A stretch of 21,979 nt of DNA, from positions 1 through 21,979 of IMG/VR virus record IMGVR_UViG_3300025598_000200, one strand, 5' to 3'. Positions 1,575-21,979 of this stretch are shown piece after piece. Origin of the DNA: a virus. The translations under genes and the position numbers were made by a program. Below the pieces are notes generated by a model that was not told where the DNA came from, ran no database searches, and worked only from the letters and a program-made list of their open reading frames with translations. The stretch's first letter is position 1; each line of letters starts with the position of its first letter.

Positions 1575-2021
1575 ATGAAGGGTAAAGCACATCACGGGCA
1601 CCACGCGCATCATGGGCATCATGCAGGTCATCATGCTCATCACGCCCACCATGCCCACAAAGCACATATGCACCATGGAATGGATGATATGGAAGAAATG
1701 AAGAAGCATAACCGCAAAGTGCGCAAGCACGGCGGTAAGACAGAGCACGATCCAGAAGGTCACTTCGATACGGATCCAGCCCCGCATGAAATCTATGCTG
1801 GCAAAGGCTCTAACACTGTGAAGGAAGCGGAAGCCAAAAAGCGTGGCGGTCGTGCTAAAAAGCACCTCGGTCATGTCCACGGCATGCATGCAGCAAAGCG
1901 TCATGATCGTCCTGCCCGTAAACATGGCGGTCGCGCAGCTTCTGACATGAACCCCTTCTCTTCTGCTCACAAGGGCACCGAGCCCAAAGCTCATAAGTCC
2001 TATGAGCCAGAGCGTGACTAA
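1575..2021 (+). CDS. Histidine-rich basic protein of unknown function
   Basis: 148 residues, ATG at 1575, with AGGAG at 1561-1565 as ribosome binding site; the upstream stop codon lies inside that site. Residues 6-34 form an extraordinary run built from Ala/Gly-His-His units: 18 of the first 35 residues are histidine. The rest is strongly basic, with repeated short 'KHGGK', 'KRGGRAKK' and 'KHGGRA' motifs separated by acidic or Pro-containing stretches, and looks largely disordered. Such a protein could bind divalent metal ions through the His run and nucleic acid or capsid through the Lys/Arg patches; neither is shown. It sits at the end of the capsid transcription block and is followed directly by a terminator. 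The reading frame is intact and the codons mix CAT and CAC, so the His run is selected coding sequence rather than a simple DNA microsatellite. Gene confidence is high; function unknown. Confidence 0.8.
   Translation: MKGKAHHGHHAHHGHHAGHHAHHAHHAHKAHMHHGMDDMEEMKKHNRKVRKHGGKTEHDPEGHFDTDPAPHEIYAGKGSNTVKEAEAKKRGGRAKKHLGHVHGMHAAKRHDRPARKHGGRAASDMNPFSSAHKGTEPKAHKSYEPERD
1590..1676 (+). repeat. His-His-Ala/Gly codon repeat within the His-rich gene
   Basis: Imperfect 9-base units encoding His-His-Ala or His-His-Gly run through this stretch, about eight units with some insertions (Ala-Gly, Lys-Ala, Met). Third positions vary between CAT and CAC and spacer codons vary among GCG, GCT, GCC, GCA and GGG, GGC, GGT. 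This points to an old repeat kept at the protein level, although length change by slippage is still possible. Confidence 0.85.
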
Positions 2022-7700: not shown

Positions 7701-8956
7701 CGGCTGTGTTGACCAATGCCACGGGTCTGCCTCTTACATCGGGCGTGACTGGCATATTGCCTATAGCTAACGGCGGTACAGGCATTTCGGCCTTTGGTAC
7801 GGGTGTGCAAACGGCACTAGGCCAAAACGTCACTGGGTCGGGCGGGATTGTCTTGCAAACATCGCCAACCATTACAACCCCAATTATTGCTACAATCAAT
7901 TCTGGTACAGGCAATGCATTGACTTTGCAGTCAAACAACACGACTGCTTTGACGATTGATACATCGCAGAATGTGGGGATTGGTACAACGTCTCTTTCTG
8001 CTAGGTTAGTAGTAAATGGCGGCACTGGCAATTCACAAGTGCGCTGGGAAGTTAACAATTCCTCATACGCACAAGAAGTTGTGACAAATGCGGCACAAAG
8101 TGCGTATTTGTATAAAAGCACTGACGCATCATACCATGTTTGGAAAGTTGCTAGCAGCGAACAAATGCGTATTGATTCTTCCGGCAACGTAGGGATTGGG
8201 ACGACATCGCCACAAACAAAATTGCAAATTCAAGGTTCACAAGCATCTGGAACCGCTAATGTTCTTTATCTTGATAATAGTAGCACGACAGGAACAACGC
8301 TTGCATCAGTCAGTTTTTCAAATGCTGGAACCGTAAAAGCGTCTATTGCGGCTTGTGTGGCTGGCGATGGCTACATGACGTTCAGCAACAACAGTAATAC
8401 TGAAAAAATGCGCCTTGATGCCAACGGCAATCTGCTGGTGGGGACGACAAGCACGTTAAACAATGCAAAACTCACCATTGTTCAAACGGGTCAAACAAAC
8501 GTCGTTAACCGCAATAGCGCAACTGCTGCTGGGAAATTTTGGAATAGCGTTTACATTGATAGTAGTAACTCTTGTTTAATTATTAATCAAAACAATGTTG
8601 GTGTTTACATAGCGGATGGCGCGACTGCGTGGTCAGCAAACTCTGATGAACGCTTAAAGGACATCATTGCGCCAATAACATCTGCGCTTGAAGGCGTAAA
8701 ATCATTTCGGGCTGTAAAATATAGTTGGAAAAGTGATGATGCTAAAACGCCACATGTTGGATTGATCGCACAAGACGTACAAAAGGTTTTGCCGGAAGTT
8801 GTGCATAGCGCAAAATTGCCGCTGTCAGATGACCAGACTGAGTATTTAGGCGTTGCATACACTGAAGTGATCCCGCTTCTCGTCGCCGCCCTTCAAGAAG
8901 CAGTCGCAAAAATTGATGCCCTTGAAACTCGTATAGCTACACTGGAGAAAAAGTAA
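4742..8956 (+). CDS. Long tail fibre / tail spike with C-terminal S74 intramolecular chaperone
   Basis: 1404 residues, ATG at 4742. Residues 1-40 ('TTAALTGSEYVEAVQSNTSV') are a usual virion-attachment end. Most of the body is Thr/Ser/Gly-rich with repeated 'GTVTSIT' plus 'GGTITTSGTISL' units near residues 45, 153, 322 and 878, 'NGGTGL' units, and an 'ATKQYVD' element near 505. Residues about 548-600 are a beta module ('NHGLSIGDMIVFNS'); 640-730 contain 'QSAGLQNGAYYVSQVG' and 'PWILTRATDA', a fibre module common in phages. Three 'NVGIGTTS'-type units lie near 1075, 1146 and 1226. Residues 1301-1404 are a peptidase S74 chaperone: 'SDERLK' supplies the Ser1301/Lys1306 dyad, with 'VGLIAQDVQKVLPEVV' and a final coiled coil. 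The domain should assist trimerisation and then cut itself off before Ser1301. Role: receptor binding. The stop overlaps the next ATG by one base. Confidence 0.92.
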   Translation: MSNTTILNLPTTAALTGSEYVEAVQSNTSVRVTTQQIANLNANTGTVTSITASAPLSGGTITTTGTIGLQSSGVTNAYLAPMATFTIKGNNTAGSANPQDLTGPQVLSLIAGAPLASPAFTGTPTAPTPLSSDNSTTIATTAFVKAQSYGGGTVTSITAGAGLNGGTITTSGTISLPTTGVAPGSYGDGADVATFTVDSYGRITSASTSAITPATIGAVPTSRTITAGTGLTGGGDLSANRTLSLSPITSGYILANETGVSAAPTGVSLSSLIDYALGNTQGQILYRAASNWQPLDPGFSGQLLQTGGAGANPSWKTVTGAGTVTSVNASGGTTGMSFSGGPITVSGTLTLGGTLGTANGGTGLTSFTSGGALYATSTSALTTGTLPVTAGGTGVTTSTGSGSVVLSNSPTLVTPTLGAASATSLTLFSPLTVPNGGTGLSSVTGYLKGAGTTISGVSTIPNSDLANSSVTIGTTNIALGATASTLAGLTSVTVTQGPTAALQLATKQYVDNNVAAGLDIHPAVAADVDSNLSATYAQGGTTPTVTTITSNVLTTSTNHGLSIGDMIVFNSTTNGITSGTPYFVFTTPALNTLTIASDYGGPQVTTLTDGSGLTITSRANSGVGATLTSTGTGPLVYEGYTAGLNDRILLVGQSAGLQNGAYYVSQVGVASVSPWILTRATDANKYIPNSASGLDQGAYFLVTGGSDAGEAYALSTTGILIIGTTSLSFAQFSQVPAYTAGTGLTLSGTQFSITNTAVSANSYGSSTAIPTFTVNAQGQLTAASTAAVIAPAGTLSGTTLNASVVSSSLTSVGTIGTGVWQGTAVGPTYGGTGQTSYLTGDLLYASATNTLSKLGIGAAGTVLTSNGTNVSWSATYAGTVTSVAQTFTGGIISVSGSPITTSGTLALTVAGTSGGIPYFSSGTTWASSAALAANAIVVGGGAGAAPSTITTGTGVVSAIGNAVTGSGGIVLQTSPSLTTPNLGTPSAAVLTNATGLPLTSGVTGILPIANGGTGISAFGTGVQTALGQNVTGSGGIVLQTSPTITTPIIATINSGTGNALTLQSNNTTALTIDTSQNVGIGTTSLSARLVVNGGTGNSQVRWEVNNSSYAQEVVTNAAQSAYLYKSTDASYHVWKVASSEQMRIDSSGNVGIGTTSPQTKLQIQGSQASGTANVLYLDNSSTTGTTLASVSFSNAGTVKASIAACVAGDGYMTFSNNSNTEKMRLDANGNLLVGTTSTLNNAKLTIVQTGQTNVVNRNSATAAGKFWNSVYIDSSNSCLIINQNNVGVYIADGATAWSANSDERLKDIIAPITSALEGVKSFRAVKYSWKSDDAKTPHVGLIAQDVQKVLPEVVHSAKLPLSDDQTEYLGVAYTEVIPLLVAALQEAVAKIDALETRIATLEKK
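5421..5443 (+). repeat. 23-base direct repeat shared by both fibre genes, copy 1
   Basis: These 23 bases are identical to 10404-10426 in the second fibre gene. They encode Ala/Thr-Gly-Thr-Gly-Leu-Thr-Gly-Gly in the same frame in both genes, inside the Thr/Gly repeat module. Perfect identity including third codon positions stands out from the surrounding diverged repeats. Confidence 0.8.
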
Positions 8957-12663: not shown

Positions 12664-13629
12664 ATGTCCAAGGCAAATTCGACTAAACTAAATGCAGATG
12701 CTTATACAGACAAATTTACCTTCATTGACCTACCAGACAGTGACCTGCCCGTCGAGGAGCTCATAGAGTGGCGCAAGCGGCAATTCACACAAAAAGCAGA
12801 AGCCAAGACATCTCGCAAGCTTGTCTCGCTTAACGTCAACTTAAACGGTGTCTATGGCATTCTGCACATGGGTGATCCCCATGTTGACGATGACGGTTGT
12901 GACCTTGCGCTGCTTGAGCATCACATGAACCTTACCAACATCACCCCCAACCTTATGGCTGGCAATGTTGGTGATCTTCGCAATAACTGGATTGGCCGCT
13001 TGGCTCGGCTGTATGGCAATCAAGCAACATCGGCAAAGCAAGCCCGCATGATTGTCGAGTGGTTTTTGCGTAAGGTCAATTGGCTTTACATTGTGAACGG
13101 CAATCACGACTGCTGGAGCGGAACGGACGACCCTATCAAGTGGCTATGCCGTCAAATTGGCACACCAAACCAAGATCACGGCATTCGGTTGAACCTAAAG
13201 CACCGCCAAGGCCGAGACATCCGAATCAATTGTCGCCATGACTTCCAAGGACACAGCCAGTGGAACCCAGCTCACGGCGTATCCAAGGCGGCTCAAATGG
13301 GTTGGCGCGATCATATCCTTGTCTGTGGCCACAAACACGTTTTTGGCTACAATGTCACTAAAGATCCCATGACGGGCCTATGGTCGCATGCCATTCGGGT
13401 TGGTGCCTATAAGGTCTACGATGAGTTTGCCGATGCGAAGGGCTTCCCAGATCACAACCTGCCAGCATGCGTGACCATTGTTGACCCCAATGCACTGCGT
13501 GAAGAGGGCATTATTACTGTCATTATGGATGTTGATGCAGCTGCAGAGTGGTTACAATGGGCGAATCACCGTCAATCTCAAGTAAAGTCGGTTGAATCCA
13601 TCAGCAAAAGTAAGGGTTTCCGCAAATGA
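12664..13629 (+). CDS. Calcineurin-like metallophosphoesterase
   Basis: 321 residues, ATG at 12664 with TAGGA about 9 bases upstream. The metal-binding motifs of the family appear in order: 'GDPHVDD' (Asp71, His73), 'GNVGD' (Asn101, Asp104), 'GNHDC' (Asn147, His148, Asp149), 'RHD' (His192) and 'GHKH' (His223, His225). The N-terminal 60 residues are an extra polar segment. The family hydrolyses phosphomono- or phosphodiesters using two metal ions; the substrate cannot be read from the sequence. Nuclease, nucleotide phosphatase or lipid-phosphate activity are all possible. It sits between holin and endolysin, and its last four bases (ATGA) overlap the endolysin start, so the two are probably translationally coupled. 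I recall homologues in other aquatic phages. Fold and metal binding are secure; role in the phage is not. Confidence 0.9.
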   Translation: MSKANSTKLNADAYTDKFTFIDLPDSDLPVEELIEWRKRQFTQKAEAKTSRKLVSLNVNLNGVYGILHMGDPHVDDDGCDLALLEHHMNLTNITPNLMAGNVGDLRNNWIGRLARLYGNQATSAKQARMIVEWFLRKVNWLYIVNGNHDCWSGTDDPIKWLCRQIGTPNQDHGIRLNLKHRQGRDIRINCRHDFQGHSQWNPAHGVSKAAQMGWRDHILVCGHKHVFGYNVTKDPMTGLWSHAIRVGAYKVYDEFADAKGFPDHNLPACVTIVDPNALREEGIITVIMDVDAAAEWLQWANHRQSQVKSVESISKSKGFRK

Positions 13630-14138
13630 AAGACAATTGGGACGATGTAATAAAGCTCATCATTAAGGAAGAAGGCGGCTTCGTGAACGACAAAAATGAT
13701 CCGGGCGGCATGACCAACTGGGGCGTGACCAAGAAGACCTTGGAGGACTGGTGTGGGCATGAAGTTAATGAACAAGCTATGCGAAATCTTATTCCTGCTG
13801 ATGTATATCCTCTGTATCAGCAGCGCTTTTGGGATGTTATCGGTGGGGACATTTGTCCTCGTGGCCTTGATTATGCCTTGATGGACTTCGCGGTCAACTC
13901 TGGTCCGGCGAGAGCTTTGCGGTACGTGCAGACCATTTTGGATGTTGAGGTGACCGGCAAGTTGGACGATGCCACAAAAGCGGCACTGGCCGACTGCGAT
14001 GGGGCTGAAACGGCTTCAAAACTATGCGATAATAGGCTAGAGTATCTGCAAAAGTTGCCAACCTTTGCCCGTTACGGCAAGGGCTGGAGCGCACGTGTAG
14101 GTCGCGTCAAGAGTGAGGCGGCAAAGATGGCAGGATAA
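13626..14138 (+). CDS. Endolysin, glycoside hydrolase family 108
   Basis: 170 residues, ATG at 13626 overlapping the upstream stop (ATGA). The N-terminus has the GH108 signature: the catalytic glutamate in 'EEGGFVNDKNDPGGMTNWGV' (Glu16 is the likely acid), where 'GGxTNWGVT' is typical. The second half ('DFAVNSGPARALRYVQTILD' then 'VTGKLDDATKAAL') matches the small peptidoglycan-binding domain that usually completes this family, and total length is as expected. It would cleave the glycan strands of peptidoglycan at the end of infection. No signal peptide or signal-anchor is seen, so export should need the holin. The following gene starts 8 bases downstream and returns to tail functions. Very confident. 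Confidence 0.93.
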   Translation: MKDNWDDVIKLIIKEEGGFVNDKNDPGGMTNWGVTKKTLEDWCGHEVNEQAMRNLIPADVYPLYQQRFWDVIGGDICPRGLDYALMDFAVNSGPARALRYVQTILDVEVTGKLDDATKAALADCDGAETASKLCDNRLEYLQKLPTFARYGKGWSARVGRVKSEAAKMAG

Positions 14139-14860: not shown

Positions 14861-17146
14861 ATGCCACATGCAGCCCTCAAGTTAATTCCCGGTGTCGATA
14901 CTCAGAAAACGCCAGCCTTAAACGAGGTCGCGCTTTCGCAATCTAATCTCATTCGGTTCCTGCCCGATCGGTCTGGCCTTGGGTTGCCGCAAAAGCTTGG
15001 CGGCTGGGTTAAATATTACCCAAACACGATTGCATCGCCTGTCCGTAACATGAAGGCATGGCAAGATTTGAATGGTGTTAAGCGGCTTGCCGTAGGTGCG
15101 GAATTATCACTGTCTGTCATTTATGAAGGCATTAACCAAGACATTACACCCAAGGATGCCATTTACACCGTGGTGCCACCGTTCACAACAACGGCTGGCT
15201 CAACTACGATTACAATGAAAATCAATTCAAGTTTCGCTAACATTTACAGTTACATTTACTATGTAACGCCGGTATCTTTGGGCGGCACAAAGCTTTTTGG
15301 CGCGTATACGATTGATAACGTGCTTGATGCAAATGACTTTCAAGTCAATGCCGAAACCGCAGCGACATATACAAACACGCAGACAGCTACTATTAGCAAT
15401 GGATCGCCTGCTGTCATTACTGGTGCATCCGCACCAGCAAATGGCACTGTTGTAAAATTTACCACCACGGGTACGTTACCGACCGGCATTACAGCTGGGA
15501 CAACATATTTTGTCCGTTATTTGACATCGACCACGTTTAACATTTCGCTTACTCCAAGCGGCGCACTAATCAATACGTCATCTGCTGGGTCGGGTACTCA
15601 TACAGCATCATTTCCCGGCCAAGTTGCTTACTATCAAACACTGACAGCCTCACCGACCGTCACTGTTACATTTCCAAATCACGGGCAATATGTTGGTGCG
15701 CAATTAGCAGTAGAACCAGCCACAACTGTTGGCGGCATTCCGCTTACAGGTACATACACAATTACATCTGTAATTGACGCTAATACCTTTACGTTTACAG
15801 CTTCAAATACAGCAACATCAACAGCCGGTGCATTTGAAAATAATGGATATGTCGAAGCAATAATTTACTACGCGGTTGTTCCGCAACCTGCTGGCTCTGG
15901 CTACGGTATTGGTGGTTATGGGGTTGGCGGTTACGGTACTGGCTCCGGTATCACGCCCACAGCTGGGACAACAATCACTGCGACAGATTGGACGCTAGAT
16001 AACTGGGGCGAGTACTTGCTTGCATGCCCAACTGGTGGCCCCATTTATGTATGGCAGCCATATGGTGTTTTACAAAATGCGCAAATCATCGACAATGTGC
16101 CCCTAGCTAATACGGGCATGTTTGTTGCCATGCCTCAGCGGCAAATTATTGCGTATGGTTCGACATTTACTGGCGCAAGCGATCCTTTGCTGGTCCGATA
16201 TTCGGACGTTGAAAATTACACTGTGTGGGATGCAACAGTTACCAACCAAGCTGGCTCTTACCGTATTCCTACCGGCAGTTTGATTGTAGGTGGCTTGCAG
16301 GCCAACCAACAAGGCCTGCTATGGACTGACATTGACCTCTGGGCGATGCAATACATTGGCCCTCCGTATGTCTATTCATTCAACAAAGTCAAAACGGGCT
16401 GTGGTCTTATTGCACGTGGTGCAGCCGCTACATTAGGCGGCGTGACATATTGGATGAGCCAGAAGCAGTTTTTTAGCTATTCTGGCGGCGATCCAAACAC
16501 GATGCCGTGCCCAGTGTGGGACGTAGTATTTCAGAACCTTAATCAAGGCTATGATGCCAATGGTTTGCCTTACACAAACCGTATTCGTTGTGCAACTAAT
16601 GCGCAGTTCAATGAGGTGACTTGGTACTATCCATCTGTTGCTGGTAATGGCGAAGTTGACAGCTACGTCAAATTTAACACCGTGCTACAGCAGTGGGACT
16701 ATGGATCACTAGCAAGAAGCGCATGGGTTGATCAGTCTGTCCTTGGGCCGCCGATCGGTGCGGATCCGTCAACTGGATACATTTATCAGCATGAAGTAAC
16801 CAATGATGCGGACGGCATGCCCATGCTGTCTAGCTTTCAGACGGGTTACTTTGAGGTGTCTGAGGCTGATCAGTTAGTGTTCCTCGACCAAGTTTGGCCA
16901 GACATGAAGTGGGGCCAATATAGCCAGCAGCCTAATTCGACAGTGCAAATTACATTTTACTCGACAAATTACCCCGGCGATACACCGGTGGCATATGGCC
17001 CCTATAATATGACGCAGGCGGTTGAATACATCAGCACCCGCATCAGAGGCCGTCTAATTGCCATTAAGGTATCAAGCAATGACGTGGGAACATTTTGGCG
17101 GCTTGGTGACATCCGCTACCGCTTTCAACCAGATGGACGATTCTAA
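14861..17146 (+). CDS. P22 gp10-like tail hub / DNA stabilisation protein with inserted beta domains
   Basis: 761 residues, ATG at 14861 with AGAGG at 14849-14853. The first 75 residues ('LIPGVDTQKTPALNE', 'FLPDRSGLGLPQKLGGW') and the C-terminal half ('LLVRYSDVENYTVWDATVTN', 'TGSLIVGGLQANQQGLLWT', 'PPYVYSFNKVKTGCGLIARG', 'VTYWMSQKQFFSYSGG') form the repeat-propeller type pattern of P22 gp10-like proteins, which lengthen and seal the tail. Residues about 113-315 are an insertion of three beta modules, including 'FPNHGQYVGAQLAVEP' and 'GTYTITSVIDANTFTF', followed by a Gly/Tyr-rich linker ('GIGGYGVGGYGTGSG') near 350-365. Such modules also occur in the proteins from 4005 and 4742. P22 gp10 is shorter, consistent with the insertion. 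It begins a tail-hub set and overlaps the next gene by one base. Confidence 0.75.
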   Translation: MPHAALKLIPGVDTQKTPALNEVALSQSNLIRFLPDRSGLGLPQKLGGWVKYYPNTIASPVRNMKAWQDLNGVKRLAVGAELSLSVIYEGINQDITPKDAIYTVVPPFTTTAGSTTITMKINSSFANIYSYIYYVTPVSLGGTKLFGAYTIDNVLDANDFQVNAETAATYTNTQTATISNGSPAVITGASAPANGTVVKFTTTGTLPTGITAGTTYFVRYLTSTTFNISLTPSGALINTSSAGSGTHTASFPGQVAYYQTLTASPTVTVTFPNHGQYVGAQLAVEPATTVGGIPLTGTYTITSVIDANTFTFTASNTATSTAGAFENNGYVEAIIYYAVVPQPAGSGYGIGGYGVGGYGTGSGITPTAGTTITATDWTLDNWGEYLLACPTGGPIYVWQPYGVLQNAQIIDNVPLANTGMFVAMPQRQIIAYGSTFTGASDPLLVRYSDVENYTVWDATVTNQAGSYRIPTGSLIVGGLQANQQGLLWTDIDLWAMQYIGPPYVYSFNKVKTGCGLIARGAAATLGGVTYWMSQKQFFSYSGGDPNTMPCPVWDVVFQNLNQGYDANGLPYTNRIRCATNAQFNEVTWYYPSVAGNGEVDSYVKFNTVLQQWDYGSLARSAWVDQSVLGPPIGADPSTGYIYQHEVTNDADGMPMLSSFQTGYFEVSEADQLVFLDQVWPDMKWGQYSQQPNSTVQITFYSTNYPGDTPVAYGPYNMTQAVEYISTRIRGRLIAIKVSSNDVGTFWRLGDIRYRFQPDGRF

Positions 17147-18744: not shown

Positions 18745-19245
18745 ATGTCTAATGAGATCAAAGTTCGGATAGCGACACCTGCAGACGAACCAGAACTAAT
18801 GCGCCTTGCAATGGCTGTTTTCCACGAAAATGGGCTGTTTGACGCAGATTATGACAAGATTTTGGGCATGATTAGGCCAGCTTTGTACCTTTGGGAAGGT
18901 ATTTGCGGCGTAATTGGGCCTGTTGGCGCACTTGAGGGCGGTGTTCTGCTCCGTTTCTCTCAATTATGGTACGGCAACACAAAGTACATAGAAGAGAAGT
19001 GTTTGTTTGTAGACGACAAGTATAGAAAAGAACGTGGTGGTAGGGCGAATAAGCTTTGCGAGTTTAGTAAGCAAGTATCGGATAGTCTTGAACTTCCCCT
19101 TGTTATTGGGGTAATGTCAAATACTAGAACCCGTGCTAAGATGCGCATGTATGAACGTCATTTTGGGGAACCAGCTGGGACGTTTTTCTTATATAAGACG
19201 AAGACGGGTGAAGCCTTGCCCGATCAGATGGTTGTTGGAGTGTAA
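18745..19245 (+). CDS. GNAT-family acetyltransferase
   Basis: 166 residues, ATG at 18745 with AAGGA at 18734-18738. The N-terminus 'KVRIATPADEPELMRLAMAV' is the usual first strand and helix of the GNAT fold. A central strand pair ('GALEGGVLLRFSQLWY') precedes 'LFVDDKYRKERGGRANKLCE' (about 89-108), which fits the acetyl-CoA-binding motif A with the pyrophosphate loop 'RKERGGRA'. The end 'NTRTRAKMRMYERHFGEPAG' followed by 'FFLY' matches the last helix and strand. The loop is a variant of the classical R/QxxGxG/A, so cofactor binding should be tested. The gene lies between two virion genes and stops 3 bases before the next start. I recall similar enzymes beside tail genes in related phages. Substrate unknown; a virion or host protein is possible. 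Confidence 0.78.
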   Translation: MSNEIKVRIATPADEPELMRLAMAVFHENGLFDADYDKILGMIRPALYLWEGICGVIGPVGALEGGVLLRFSQLWYGNTKYIEEKCLFVDDKYRKERGGRANKLCEFSKQVSDSLELPLVIGVMSNTRTRAKMRMYERHFGEPAGTFFLYKTKTGEALPDQMVVGV

Positions 19246-19248
19246 TGA

Positions 19249-21979
19249 ATGTCGGGCGGCGGTGGTAAAGGGGGTGGCTCAACCAGTACAGTGTCTATCC
19301 CGCCAGAAGTATTGGCGCGGTATAATGCTGTCAACGCGAGAGCCGAACAGACGGCTACGCAGCCATTTCAGCAGTATAGCACTGACCCTAACGCCTTCGT
19401 CGCCCCTTTAACTGACACGCAACAATCCGGTATCGCCAACACAAATGCCATGGCTGGCGCAGCCCAACCTTGGTACCAAGCCGCCGGTCAAGCACTGGCA
19501 AGCGGTGTGCAGCAGGCTCAACCATACATTGCCGGTGCCACGCAGAATGTAGGTACAGCACAACAGCAAGGTACGGCCTATAATCAAGCAGCTGCAAATC
19601 TTTACGGTGGCGCTATGGGCGCTGCATCTCCTTACATGGCTGGCGCTACGAACGCTGTCGGGCAGGCATTAGGCGCTGGCGTACCTTTGACACAGCAAGC
19701 CTTGGCACAAGGCACTGGCCTTACTCAGCAAGGTCTTGGGCAGATTGGCGATGTTTATGGCCAAGCGCAAGGATACAATGCGGCTGCTACTGGTGCTTAT
19801 GGCGCAGGTGCCGCTGGCTCTGCTCCACTCGTTCAACAGGCTGGGCAACAGTACCAAGCGGGCCTCGGCATGGCTTTGCCGTTTACTTTGGCGGGCGCAC
19901 AAGATGTCAATGCGCAACAGATCGGTGGCCGTCAAATTAACCAGTTTATGAACCCATACATGAACACGGTTATCGGTGGCACATTGGCACCCCTGCAACA
20001 GCAGCAGGCCATGGATAGAGCTGCTCAAACGGGTCAAGCCATCCAAGCTGGCGCATTTGGCGGCGACCGGGCAGCAATAGCTCAAGCAGCACTGCGTGGT
20101 CAGCAAGATATTGCCACGGGTAATGTCGTTGGTAACTTGCTCAATCAAGGTTACGGGCAGGCATTGGGTGCCGCACAACAGCAGCAGGGCGTTAATCTGT
20201 CGGCTGCACAAGCGAATCGTGCCGCGCAGGCAGCAACGGGCCAGCAGCTCTACGGTCAATTCACTGGGACGGGGCAACAGCAGGCCGCACTGGCGAATCA
20301 GATCTACGGCATGGGCACTCAAGGTGCCAGCACTTTGGCAAACTTGGGCCAGCAAGGTTATCAGCAAGGCATGGGCAGCATTGGCCAGCAGTTGGCTGGT
20401 GCGCAGCAATTGTATGGTATGGGTAGTGGTGCCGGGCAGCAACTCTACGGTCAGTATTCTGGTGCCGGTCAACAGTTGGGCAATTTAGGCCAGCAATTGT
20501 ATGGCCAGCAGACGGGTGTGGCTCAAGGTTTGGGTGCCATCGGGCAGCAGCAATTTGGCCAAGGCATGACTGCGGCACAGCAGCAGGCAGCTCTTGCTAA
20601 CCAAGTCTACGGAATGGGCGCACAAACTGCTCAAAACCTCGGCGCATTGGGCACGGGCGCTCAGACGGCTGGCCTTACTGGTGCTCAAGCGCAGTTGGCG
20701 GCTGGTCAACAACAGCAGCAGACGCAGCAGGCTGGCCTCACTGCGCTCTACAATCAGTTCCTGCAGCAGCAATCCTATCCGTTCCAAGTCACGCAGTTCT
20801 TGGCAAACATTGCCGAAGGTACTGGCGCTCTCTCTGGTTCGACGACAACCACACAGCAGTCTGGTGGGTTCTTCTCGGACGAGCGCGTCAAGGAAGACAT
20901 TGAGCAAATCGGTGAGACCTATGACGGTCAAAAGATCATCAAGTTCCGCTATAAAGGCGAACATGGACCCAAGCAGATCGGTCTGTCGGCGCAGGACGTT
21001 GAAAAACATCACCCGCATGCAGTCGGTGACTATCACGGCATCAAGACAGTTGACTATGATGAGGCCACGAAGGATGCAGCCCACCGTGGCCATTTCTATC
21101 AAGGCGGCCTAGCGTCGATGGGTGGCGCAGCTATCAATGACAATGTGCGCGAAAACTTTGACATCGGTGGCTTGGCTGGGGCGGATCAGAGCGCATTGTT
21201 GCAGCAATTGATGGGCAGACAGGTAGTTAATCCATATGGTGCAGCTGGTGCGGCTCAAGGTGCAGCCGGGCTTGTGCCTACGCAGCGCAATATTATGACA
21301 AGTTCTATGCCAAATCGCAACTTGATGGTGGCACCTACACCGCAACGCCAGCAAAGTGGTTTGTCTCAAACAACGTCAGCCATCAAAGATTTGGGCGGCA
21401 TTGGTAGCCGTGGTGTCAAAGACACTAAAACTGGGCAATACACTGGCGGATCCGGTCTGCTTGGTGCGGCACAAGGCGTTAAAGATTGGTCTTCGGGCGA
21501 TACAACTAAATCAGCAAACGCGACACCTTCTACAACATCTGATAATACTGGCAAAAACTATGTTAGTGGTTCCGATGGACAACCCATGTCTGTGGATGAC
21601 ATGAGGAAATTTGAAGAAAATAGAGGGGGTCGAATTGGCTATGCTACTGATGGTAGCGTAGATGATGACAATATGCCTCCGCCTCAGCAAGAGGCTGATA
21701 TTGATAAGCCTAAAGATGTTGATTTGCTCAAACATCAAGGCAAAATGACCATTCCGGATGACAATCCGCAAGCGAAACTTGCCGTTGCCCAAGGTGGCGG
21801 CGGTGGAGGCGGCGGCGGTGGTGGCCTCGGCAGCTTACTTGGTGGTCTTGGCTCTTTAGGTATGGGCTTTGCTAAAGCGGCCCCATATCTGGGCTTTACC
21901 GCTGCAGCATTTGGTGGTGCCATTGATGGTCTTGCTGGTGCACGTGAACATCATGCTGGTAATACTGGCGATGGAAGCG
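19249..21979 (+). CDS. Large Gln/Ala/Gly-rich internal or ejection-type virion protein with internal S74-like module (3' end outside window)
   Basis: Open from ATG 19249 to the window end: 910 codons with no stop. An overlapping ATG at 19245 is in another frame and is not used. The N-terminus 'MSGGGGKGGGSTSTVSIPPE' is flexible. Residues about 60-530 are Gln, Ala, Gly and Tyr-rich with repeats such as 'GAGQQLYGQYSGAGQQLG', often 11 residues apart, likely long helices. Residues 543-620 hold an S74-like module: 'SDERVKEDI' gives Ser543/Lys548, with 'KQIGLSAQDVEKHHPHAV' after it. The following part is Gly-rich and acidic/polar, with an 11-glycine run (codons 849-859) before a hydrophobic Gly/Leu/Ala stretch 'LGSLLGGLGSLGMGFAKAA'. 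Length, composition and position fit a podoviral ejection protein, possibly with a lytic or membrane-inserting end beyond the window. No lysozyme motif is visible here. Confidence 0.72.
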   Translation, partial: MSGGGGKGGGSTSTVSIPPEVLARYNAVNARAEQTATQPFQQYSTDPNAFVAPLTDTQQSGIANTNAMAGAAQPWYQAAGQALASGVQQAQPYIAGATQNVGTAQQQGTAYNQAAANLYGGAMGAASPYMAGATNAVGQALGAGVPLTQQALAQGTGLTQQGLGQIGDVYGQAQGYNAAATGAYGAGAAGSAPLVQQAGQQYQAGLGMALPFTLAGAQDVNAQQIGGRQINQFMNPYMNTVIGGTLAPLQQQQAMDRAAQTGQAIQAGAFGGDRAAIAQAALRGQQDIATGNVVGNLLNQGYGQALGAAQQQQGVNLSAAQANRAAQAATGQQLYGQFTGTGQQQAALANQIYGMGTQGASTLANLGQQGYQQGMGSIGQQLAGAQQLYGMGSGAGQQLYGQYSGAGQQLGNLGQQLYGQQTGVAQGLGAIGQQQFGQGMTAAQQQAALANQVYGMGAQTAQNLGALGTGAQTAGLTGAQAQLAAGQQQQQTQQAGLTALYNQFLQQQSYPFQVTQFLANIAEGTGALSGSTTTTQQSGGFFSDERVKEDIEQIGETYDGQKIIKFRYKGEHGPKQIGLSAQDVEKHHPHAVGDYHGIKTVDYDEATKDAAHRGHFYQGGLASMGGAAINDNVRENFDIGGLAGADQSALLQQLMGRQVVNPYGAAGAAQGAAGLVPTQRNIMTSSMPNRNLMVAPTPQRQQSGLSQTTSAIKDLGGIGSRGVKDTKTGQYTGGSGLLGAAQGVKDWSSGDTTKSANATPSTTSDNTGKNYVSGSDGQPMSVDDMRKFEENRGGRIGYATDGSVDDDNMPPPQQEADIDKPKDVDLLKHQGKMTIPDDNPQAKLAVAQGGGGGGGGGGGLGSLLGGLGSLGMGFAKAAPYLGFTAAAFGGAIDGLAGAREHHAGNTGDGS
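20231..20700 (+). repeat. Gln/Gly/Tyr coding repeats in the internal virion protein
   Basis: This stretch encodes repeated 'QQLYG', 'IYGMG' and 'GAGQQ' elements. 'LYGMGSGAGQQ' is followed at once by 'LYGQYSGAGQQ', an 11-residue period. A longer repeat, 'QQAALANQIYGMG' versus 'QQAALANQVYGMG', recurs 303 bases apart (20281 and 20584). Codons differ between copies, so the repeat is conserved at the protein level. Confidence 0.75.
21793..21825 (+). repeat. Run of 11 glycine codons
   Basis: Eleven consecutive GGN codons (mixed GGT, GGC and one GGA) form a flexible polyglycine linker. It is followed by the hydrophobic Gly/Leu/Ala-rich segment of the last protein and preceded by 'KLAVAQ', so it separates two regions of that protein. 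Confidence 0.9.

Follow-up and report, generated by a model that had tools for sequence, protein, structure and literature searches.

A compact S74 domain inside a large phage ejection-type protein, possibly a self-cutting junction

The gene at the end of the window

The window analyzed here is the entire IMG/VR virus record IMGVR_UViG_3300025598_000200 (21,979 nt). Its last gene encodes a large protein that carries an S74-like module in its interior (Table 1), and the reading frame is cut by the contig end. A separate record, contig L006, is 100% identical to the window ORF (19249-21979, +) across all 910 residues, and there the full-length protein comprises 1519 aa, 976 of which follow Ser543. 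The initial annotation was right that the module is internal, although its count of more than 360 following residues reflects the truncated frame. The first unit (aa 1-542) is dominated by three residues (Gln 20%, Ala 19%, Gly 17%). The C-terminal part, previously described as membrane-active-looking, is instead a cell-wall hydrolase unit: Pfam places a cell-wall hydrolase domain (PF07486) at aa 945-1026 of the L006 protein, beyond the window end, and no segment of the window/L006 protein reaches the hydrophobicity of a membrane span (highest 19-residue Kyte-Doolittle mean 1.12). A membrane-active C-terminus was rejected on these two grounds. Gene order and relatives support the earlier assignment to the internal/ejection type, and the protein is probably carried in the phage head and injected into the bacterium.

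Table 1. Positions of the features discussed, numbered from the first nucleotide of the window.
Feature	Position	Strand	Remarks
Small protein	1575-2021	+	Strikingly His-rich N-terminus (MKGKAHHGHHAHHGHHAGHHAHHAHHAHKAHMHHG)
Classic S74 domain with coiled coil, tail-fibre C-terminus	8642-8806	+	Reference copy
DNA repair exonuclease-like gene	12664-13629	+	PHROG 7339
Glycosyl hydrolase 108 lysozyme-like gene	13626-14138	+	Adjoins 12664-13629 (+)
Tail-tube/stabilisation-type protein	14861-17146	+	PHROG 3287; phage endosialidase beta-barrel domain PF12195 at E 2e-5, below cut-off
Acetyltransferase-like gene	18745-19245	+	Directly upstream of the fused gene; PHROG 1249, E 1e-4
Large fused ejection-type protein	19249-21979	+	910 aa, open at contig end
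First unit, aa 1-542, Gln/Ala/Gly-rich	19249-20874	+	Place of P22 gp7 / T7 gp14 by gene order
Thr/Gln/Gly linker	20845-20874	+	Ends Phe-Phe before putative cleavage bond Phe542-Ser543
Short S74 (ICA-core) module, aa 543-613	20875-21087	+	Pfam match aa 543-592
Ser543, putative catalytic serine	20875-20877	+	Invariant in 195/195 modules
Lys548, putative catalytic lysine	20890-20892	+	Invariant in 195/195 modules
Second unit, start	21088-21979	+	Continues to aa 1519 in L006

A short form of the S74 domain

The internal module is a compact S74 domain, reduced to the core of the intramolecular chaperone (ICA). Peptidase_S74 (PF13884) matches aa 543-592 with an E-value of 8e-7 and 29.7 bits, above the curated cut-off of 22 bits, and S74 matches occur at two places in the whole record, the fibre (8642-8806) and this module (20875-21024). 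Ser543-Asp544 and Lys548 show the spacing of +5 found for Ser1301/Lys1306 in the fibre, as the initial annotation had observed, and a comparison of 70 short modules with classic S74 domains by hhalign (probability 99.4%, E 1.2e-21) confirmed its reading of an S74-like module mid-protein. A profile of the split proteins described below found MYRF ICA (7dc3) in the PDB by sequence (E 2.8e-4). A structure search of BFVD gave 18 matches (E up to 1e-3), and those with a name were mostly annotated as ICA/S74. In the PDB, the first three structural matches were the MYRF ICA domain, at non-significant scores, and a second model had no match; because this PDB structure search was weak, support for the fold comes from BFVD and the sequence profiles. 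AlphaFold predicted the window module with a mean pLDDT of 77 and the short module of a split relative with 91-95; in a model of a whole split protein, nothing but the module and one short helical segment was resolved. A chimeric assembly or chance match, as might be feared for one metagenomic contig ending within the gene, has practically no probability left, being refuted by L006, which is identical through the region, by dozens of other contigs with the same arrangement and by the profile comparisons. Recent duplication of the S74 domain in the fibre was likewise rejected as the source: the two cores align only partly, and the module is a member of a large, separate family.

To define this family, a profile built from relatives was run on the first 183 loci and recovered 137 distinct modules. 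Surveyed by placement, as the initial annotation had suggested, 86 of the 137 were internal and 47 terminal; in the terminal ones the protein ends 63-91 residues past Ser (median 72). Classic S74 domains retrieved with them continue for 85-223 residues beyond Ser, since a long coiled coil comes next. Aligned with these, the short module spans the core and breaks off where the last helix starts. The C-terminal trimerising coiled coil is absent from the short modules, whose last predicted helix spans 11-14 residues, and a hairpin (VGxTxDGxPIYxYxYKG) replaces the post-dyad stretch that is helical in classic domains. The module in the window is thus a real S74 domain, as first proposed, but shorter than the fibre copy, whose coiled coil it lacks. 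The accompanying generalization that S74 normally sits at the extreme C-terminus of fibres was not supported, as short modules commonly end podophage proteins in the ejection slot and that of MYRF is internal.

Two modules per protein were present in 16/71 internal-module proteins (L024, L026, L046, L049, L050, L053, L054, L057, L060, L062, L066, L068, L070, L089, L109 and L122). The second module of L024 and L026 sits where others have the hydrolase, preceded by an Ala-rich hydrophobic stretch like that preceding terminal modules. Cronobacter phage GAP52 (L185), Vibrio phage 199E37-1 (L186) and Pseudomonas phage AH02 (L187) have more distant short S74 modules, located at the C-terminus or close to it in proteins whose annotations read DNA ejection, DNA transfer or 'intamolecular chaperon'; this suggests that podophage ejection-slot proteins commonly carry the short module. 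Three fused module proteins (L122, L125, L136) come from contigs that binning had assigned to Paceibacterota and Chloroflexi; these are probably mis-binned free phage contigs.

Ser, Asp and Lys occupied the three dyad positions in all 195 distinct modules from all loci, with Ser encoded by TCN in 192 and by AGY in 3. One search pattern contained SDxxxK, and the dyad was therefore rechecked in sets chosen without the motif. It was present in 32/32 viral, 18/18 genomic and 16/16 second modules (66/66), and in 74/74 loci found via the segment upstream of the module, which excludes search-pattern bias as the source of its invariance. Among 70 representatives (mutual identity under about 68%), the never-varying positions were S, D, K and one Gly. 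The accessory basic residue of related domains (endoNF R897 / MYRF K671) has no conserved counterpart among the 195 modules; a K or R lies within 16 residues before Ser in 40 of them. Phe-Phe directly before Ser marked 41/71 first internal modules, compared with 2/47 terminal and 0/16 second modules.

Split relatives and the case for gene fusion

Split and fused arrangements of these genes both occur, as do the two-module proteins. In the split form, known from cultured podophages, the short module ends a protein of roughly 330 aa (range ~270-380 aa), as in Sulfitobacter phages pCB2047-C and phiGT1, EBPR podovirus 2 (metagenomic), Ochrobactrum OH, Rhizobium N2, Bradyrhizobium ppBeUSDA76-2, Pseudomonas PAE2 and Pseudomonas AH02. 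A gene for a peptidoglycan hydrolase or an injection protein often comes next, and the gene before it is often an acetyltransferase gene. In the phiGT1 record, the acetyltransferase-like gene is named head assembly protein and takes the place of P22 gp14, a C-terminal PF13884 domain is noted in the protein after it, and the two genes after the module gene are labelled as internal virion/injection proteins, a FlgJ-like hydrolase being assigned to the first of them. The podophage order of tail tube B, acetyltransferase, module protein and hydrolase/injection protein is found in the phiGT1 record and in the window. The acetyltransferase-like gene of the window has no Pfam match; a homologue lies upstream of 62/66 internal-module genes versus 9/45 terminal-module genes.

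Sequence links between the two forms differ by region. Several fused tails contain stretches that match genes lying after split module genes (phmmer, E 1e-94 to 1e-13), and hydrolase domains detected by Pfam in 41 fused tails comprised SLT (8), GH108 (3), Hydrolase_2 (1) and lysozyme (1). A GLGxMxxSPSR motif of the fused tails had no regex match downstream of split genes. For the first units, the profile comparison of fused with split proteins was weak (37%), and window aa 1-540 alone had no PHROG match. One protein (L003) matched the PHROG 4287 DNA ejection protein weakly (0.002), and an Ochrobactrum protein (L036) matched the same 'DNA ejection protein' family clearly (5e-19) and a fused first unit as well (6e-13). 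Elsewhere, the first unit of some fused relatives (L028:5995-10026, L029:5707-9396 and L226) runs into the second without a module.

The two units of the split form are one gene in the window lineage, so the internal position of the module is best read as the result of a gene fusion whose junction it marks. This reading, like the ejection-protein identity drawn from gene order, annotation and partial sequence links, is supported but not proven. The module tree, which is poorly resolved, would need several switches between terminal and internal placement. Since the module lies at the boundary of units that are separate in relatives, it is reasonable to hypothesize, as the initial annotation did, that one gene yields two internal proteins.

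Self-cleavage, docking and known systems

We hypothesize that the module began as the domain closing a small podophage ejection protein at its C-terminus (P22 gp7 / T7 gp14 place), and that in the window lineage this protein was fused with the downstream peptidoglycan-hydrolase ejection protein to give the 1519-residue chain with the domain mid-protein. After the ejection proteins assemble, the module would cut the Phe542-Ser543 bond, yielding a first protein of ~54 kDa and a module-plus-hydrolase protein of ~103 kDa from a chain of ~157 kDa. The tryptic peptide across this bond spans aa 325-546. For this explanation as a whole, an S74 core domain at a fusion junction that is still self-cutting, we see a little less than an even chance; self-cleavage of the window protein has about the same odds, and its timing and role are conjectural. 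Self-cleavage is favoured by the invariant dyad, the junction position and the precedent of MYRF, which is cut by an internal S74 domain with an S587/K592 dyad (PMC8326128). It is disfavoured by the missing coiled coil, which in MYRF is the main driver of trimers, the only state in which cleavage takes place (PMC8326128), and by the lack of a conserved accessory Arg/Lys. The retention of the module at plain C-termini, where a cut separates no second protein, also counts against cutting, as do the fused proteins without a module (L028, L029, L226), which at the least show that not all fused proteins depend on cutting at a module. The weak profile link between fused and split first units weighs against the explanation as a whole. 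A broader version, in which the widespread short coiled-coil-less S74 form is a self-cutting junction that turns a polyprotein into two injected proteins (three where there are two modules), strikes us as doubtful; the trigger would perhaps be oligomerisation of the ejection complex.

Cutting is, slightly, the most likely outcome, and a reading without it stands nearly level. There, architecture and origin are the same, and the module no longer cuts but serves the ejection complex in folding or docking, with Ser, Asp and Lys kept for the N-terminal edge of the fold or for a binding surface. We regard this as quite conceivable, though below an even chance. The absence of both the coiled coil and the accessory basic residue fits it, as do the persistence of the module at C-termini, its dispensability in some fused proteins and its prediction, on its own, as a confident single-chain domain (pLDDT 91-95); two modules per protein would suit a repeated docking domain. 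Against a purely structural role, Ser is never replaced by Thr, Ala or Asn, and Lys never by Arg, in 195 modules, whereas most core positions vary and the models place Ser where the ordered part only begins. An improbable third reading confines cutting to some relatives, or to C-terminal trimming in split proteins, and makes the window module a passive remnant of fusion. It draws on the fact that terminal and internal placements are both common and that placement changed several times on the poorly resolved tree, yet the dyad is equally invariant in internal modules, with no relaxed selection seen after fusion.

Self-cutting, if it occurs, would make the module a minimal S74 peptidase without the known trimer scaffold, and would provide a built-in route to several podophage ejection proteins from one chain, for which model phages use separate genes. 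If there is no cutting, an invariant Ser-Lys dyad without catalysis calls for explanation. The cultured phages phiGT1, pCB2047-C and Ochrobactrum OH carry the module, making the question of cleavage readily testable. S74 domains as such, internal ones as in MYRF, and podophage structural genes annotated with S74 are already known; our literature search found no paper on S74 in ejection proteins, the short form, the junction position or two-module proteins. Many podophage annotations as 'tail fiber domain-containing protein' probably denote ejection proteins.

Compared with known systems, the short module shares with the S74/ICA domains of tail spikes and fibres (PF13884; endoNF, T5 L-shaped fibre, phi29 gp12) the core sequence, the Ser-x4-Lys at the domain start and the GxxAQxV and P-x-x-V core motifs. 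It differs from them in lacking the C-terminal coiled coil and in having a hairpin in place of the post-dyad helix, and the window protein is of the ejection type with the module internal. MYRF ICA resembles the window module as an internal S74 domain with the same dyad, but belongs to a eukaryotic transcription factor with a trimerising coiled coil and demonstrated cutting. By BFVD match, the same module also occurs in large proteins of uncultured phages in UniProt, known from their database annotation; an example is A0A6J5LD05 (1487 aa, 'Intramolecular chaperone auto-processing domain containing protein'). The window protein shares its gene position with the ejection proteins P22 gp7/gp20/gp16 and T7 gp14/gp15/gp16, and likely their task (pore, peptidoglycan digestion and DNA-entry channel), although these are encoded by separate genes in P22 and T7. 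No significant direct sequence match to the P22/T7 ejection proteins was found, and we know of no S74 domain in P22 gp7/gp20/gp16 or T7 gp14/gp15/gp16. The same short module and neighbourhood as in the window are found in phiGT1_17, pCB2047-C, EBPR podovirus 2 gp27 and Ochrobactrum OH gp40, where, in contrast to the window, the module ends a protein of 326-379 aa and the hydrolase is encoded by the next gene.
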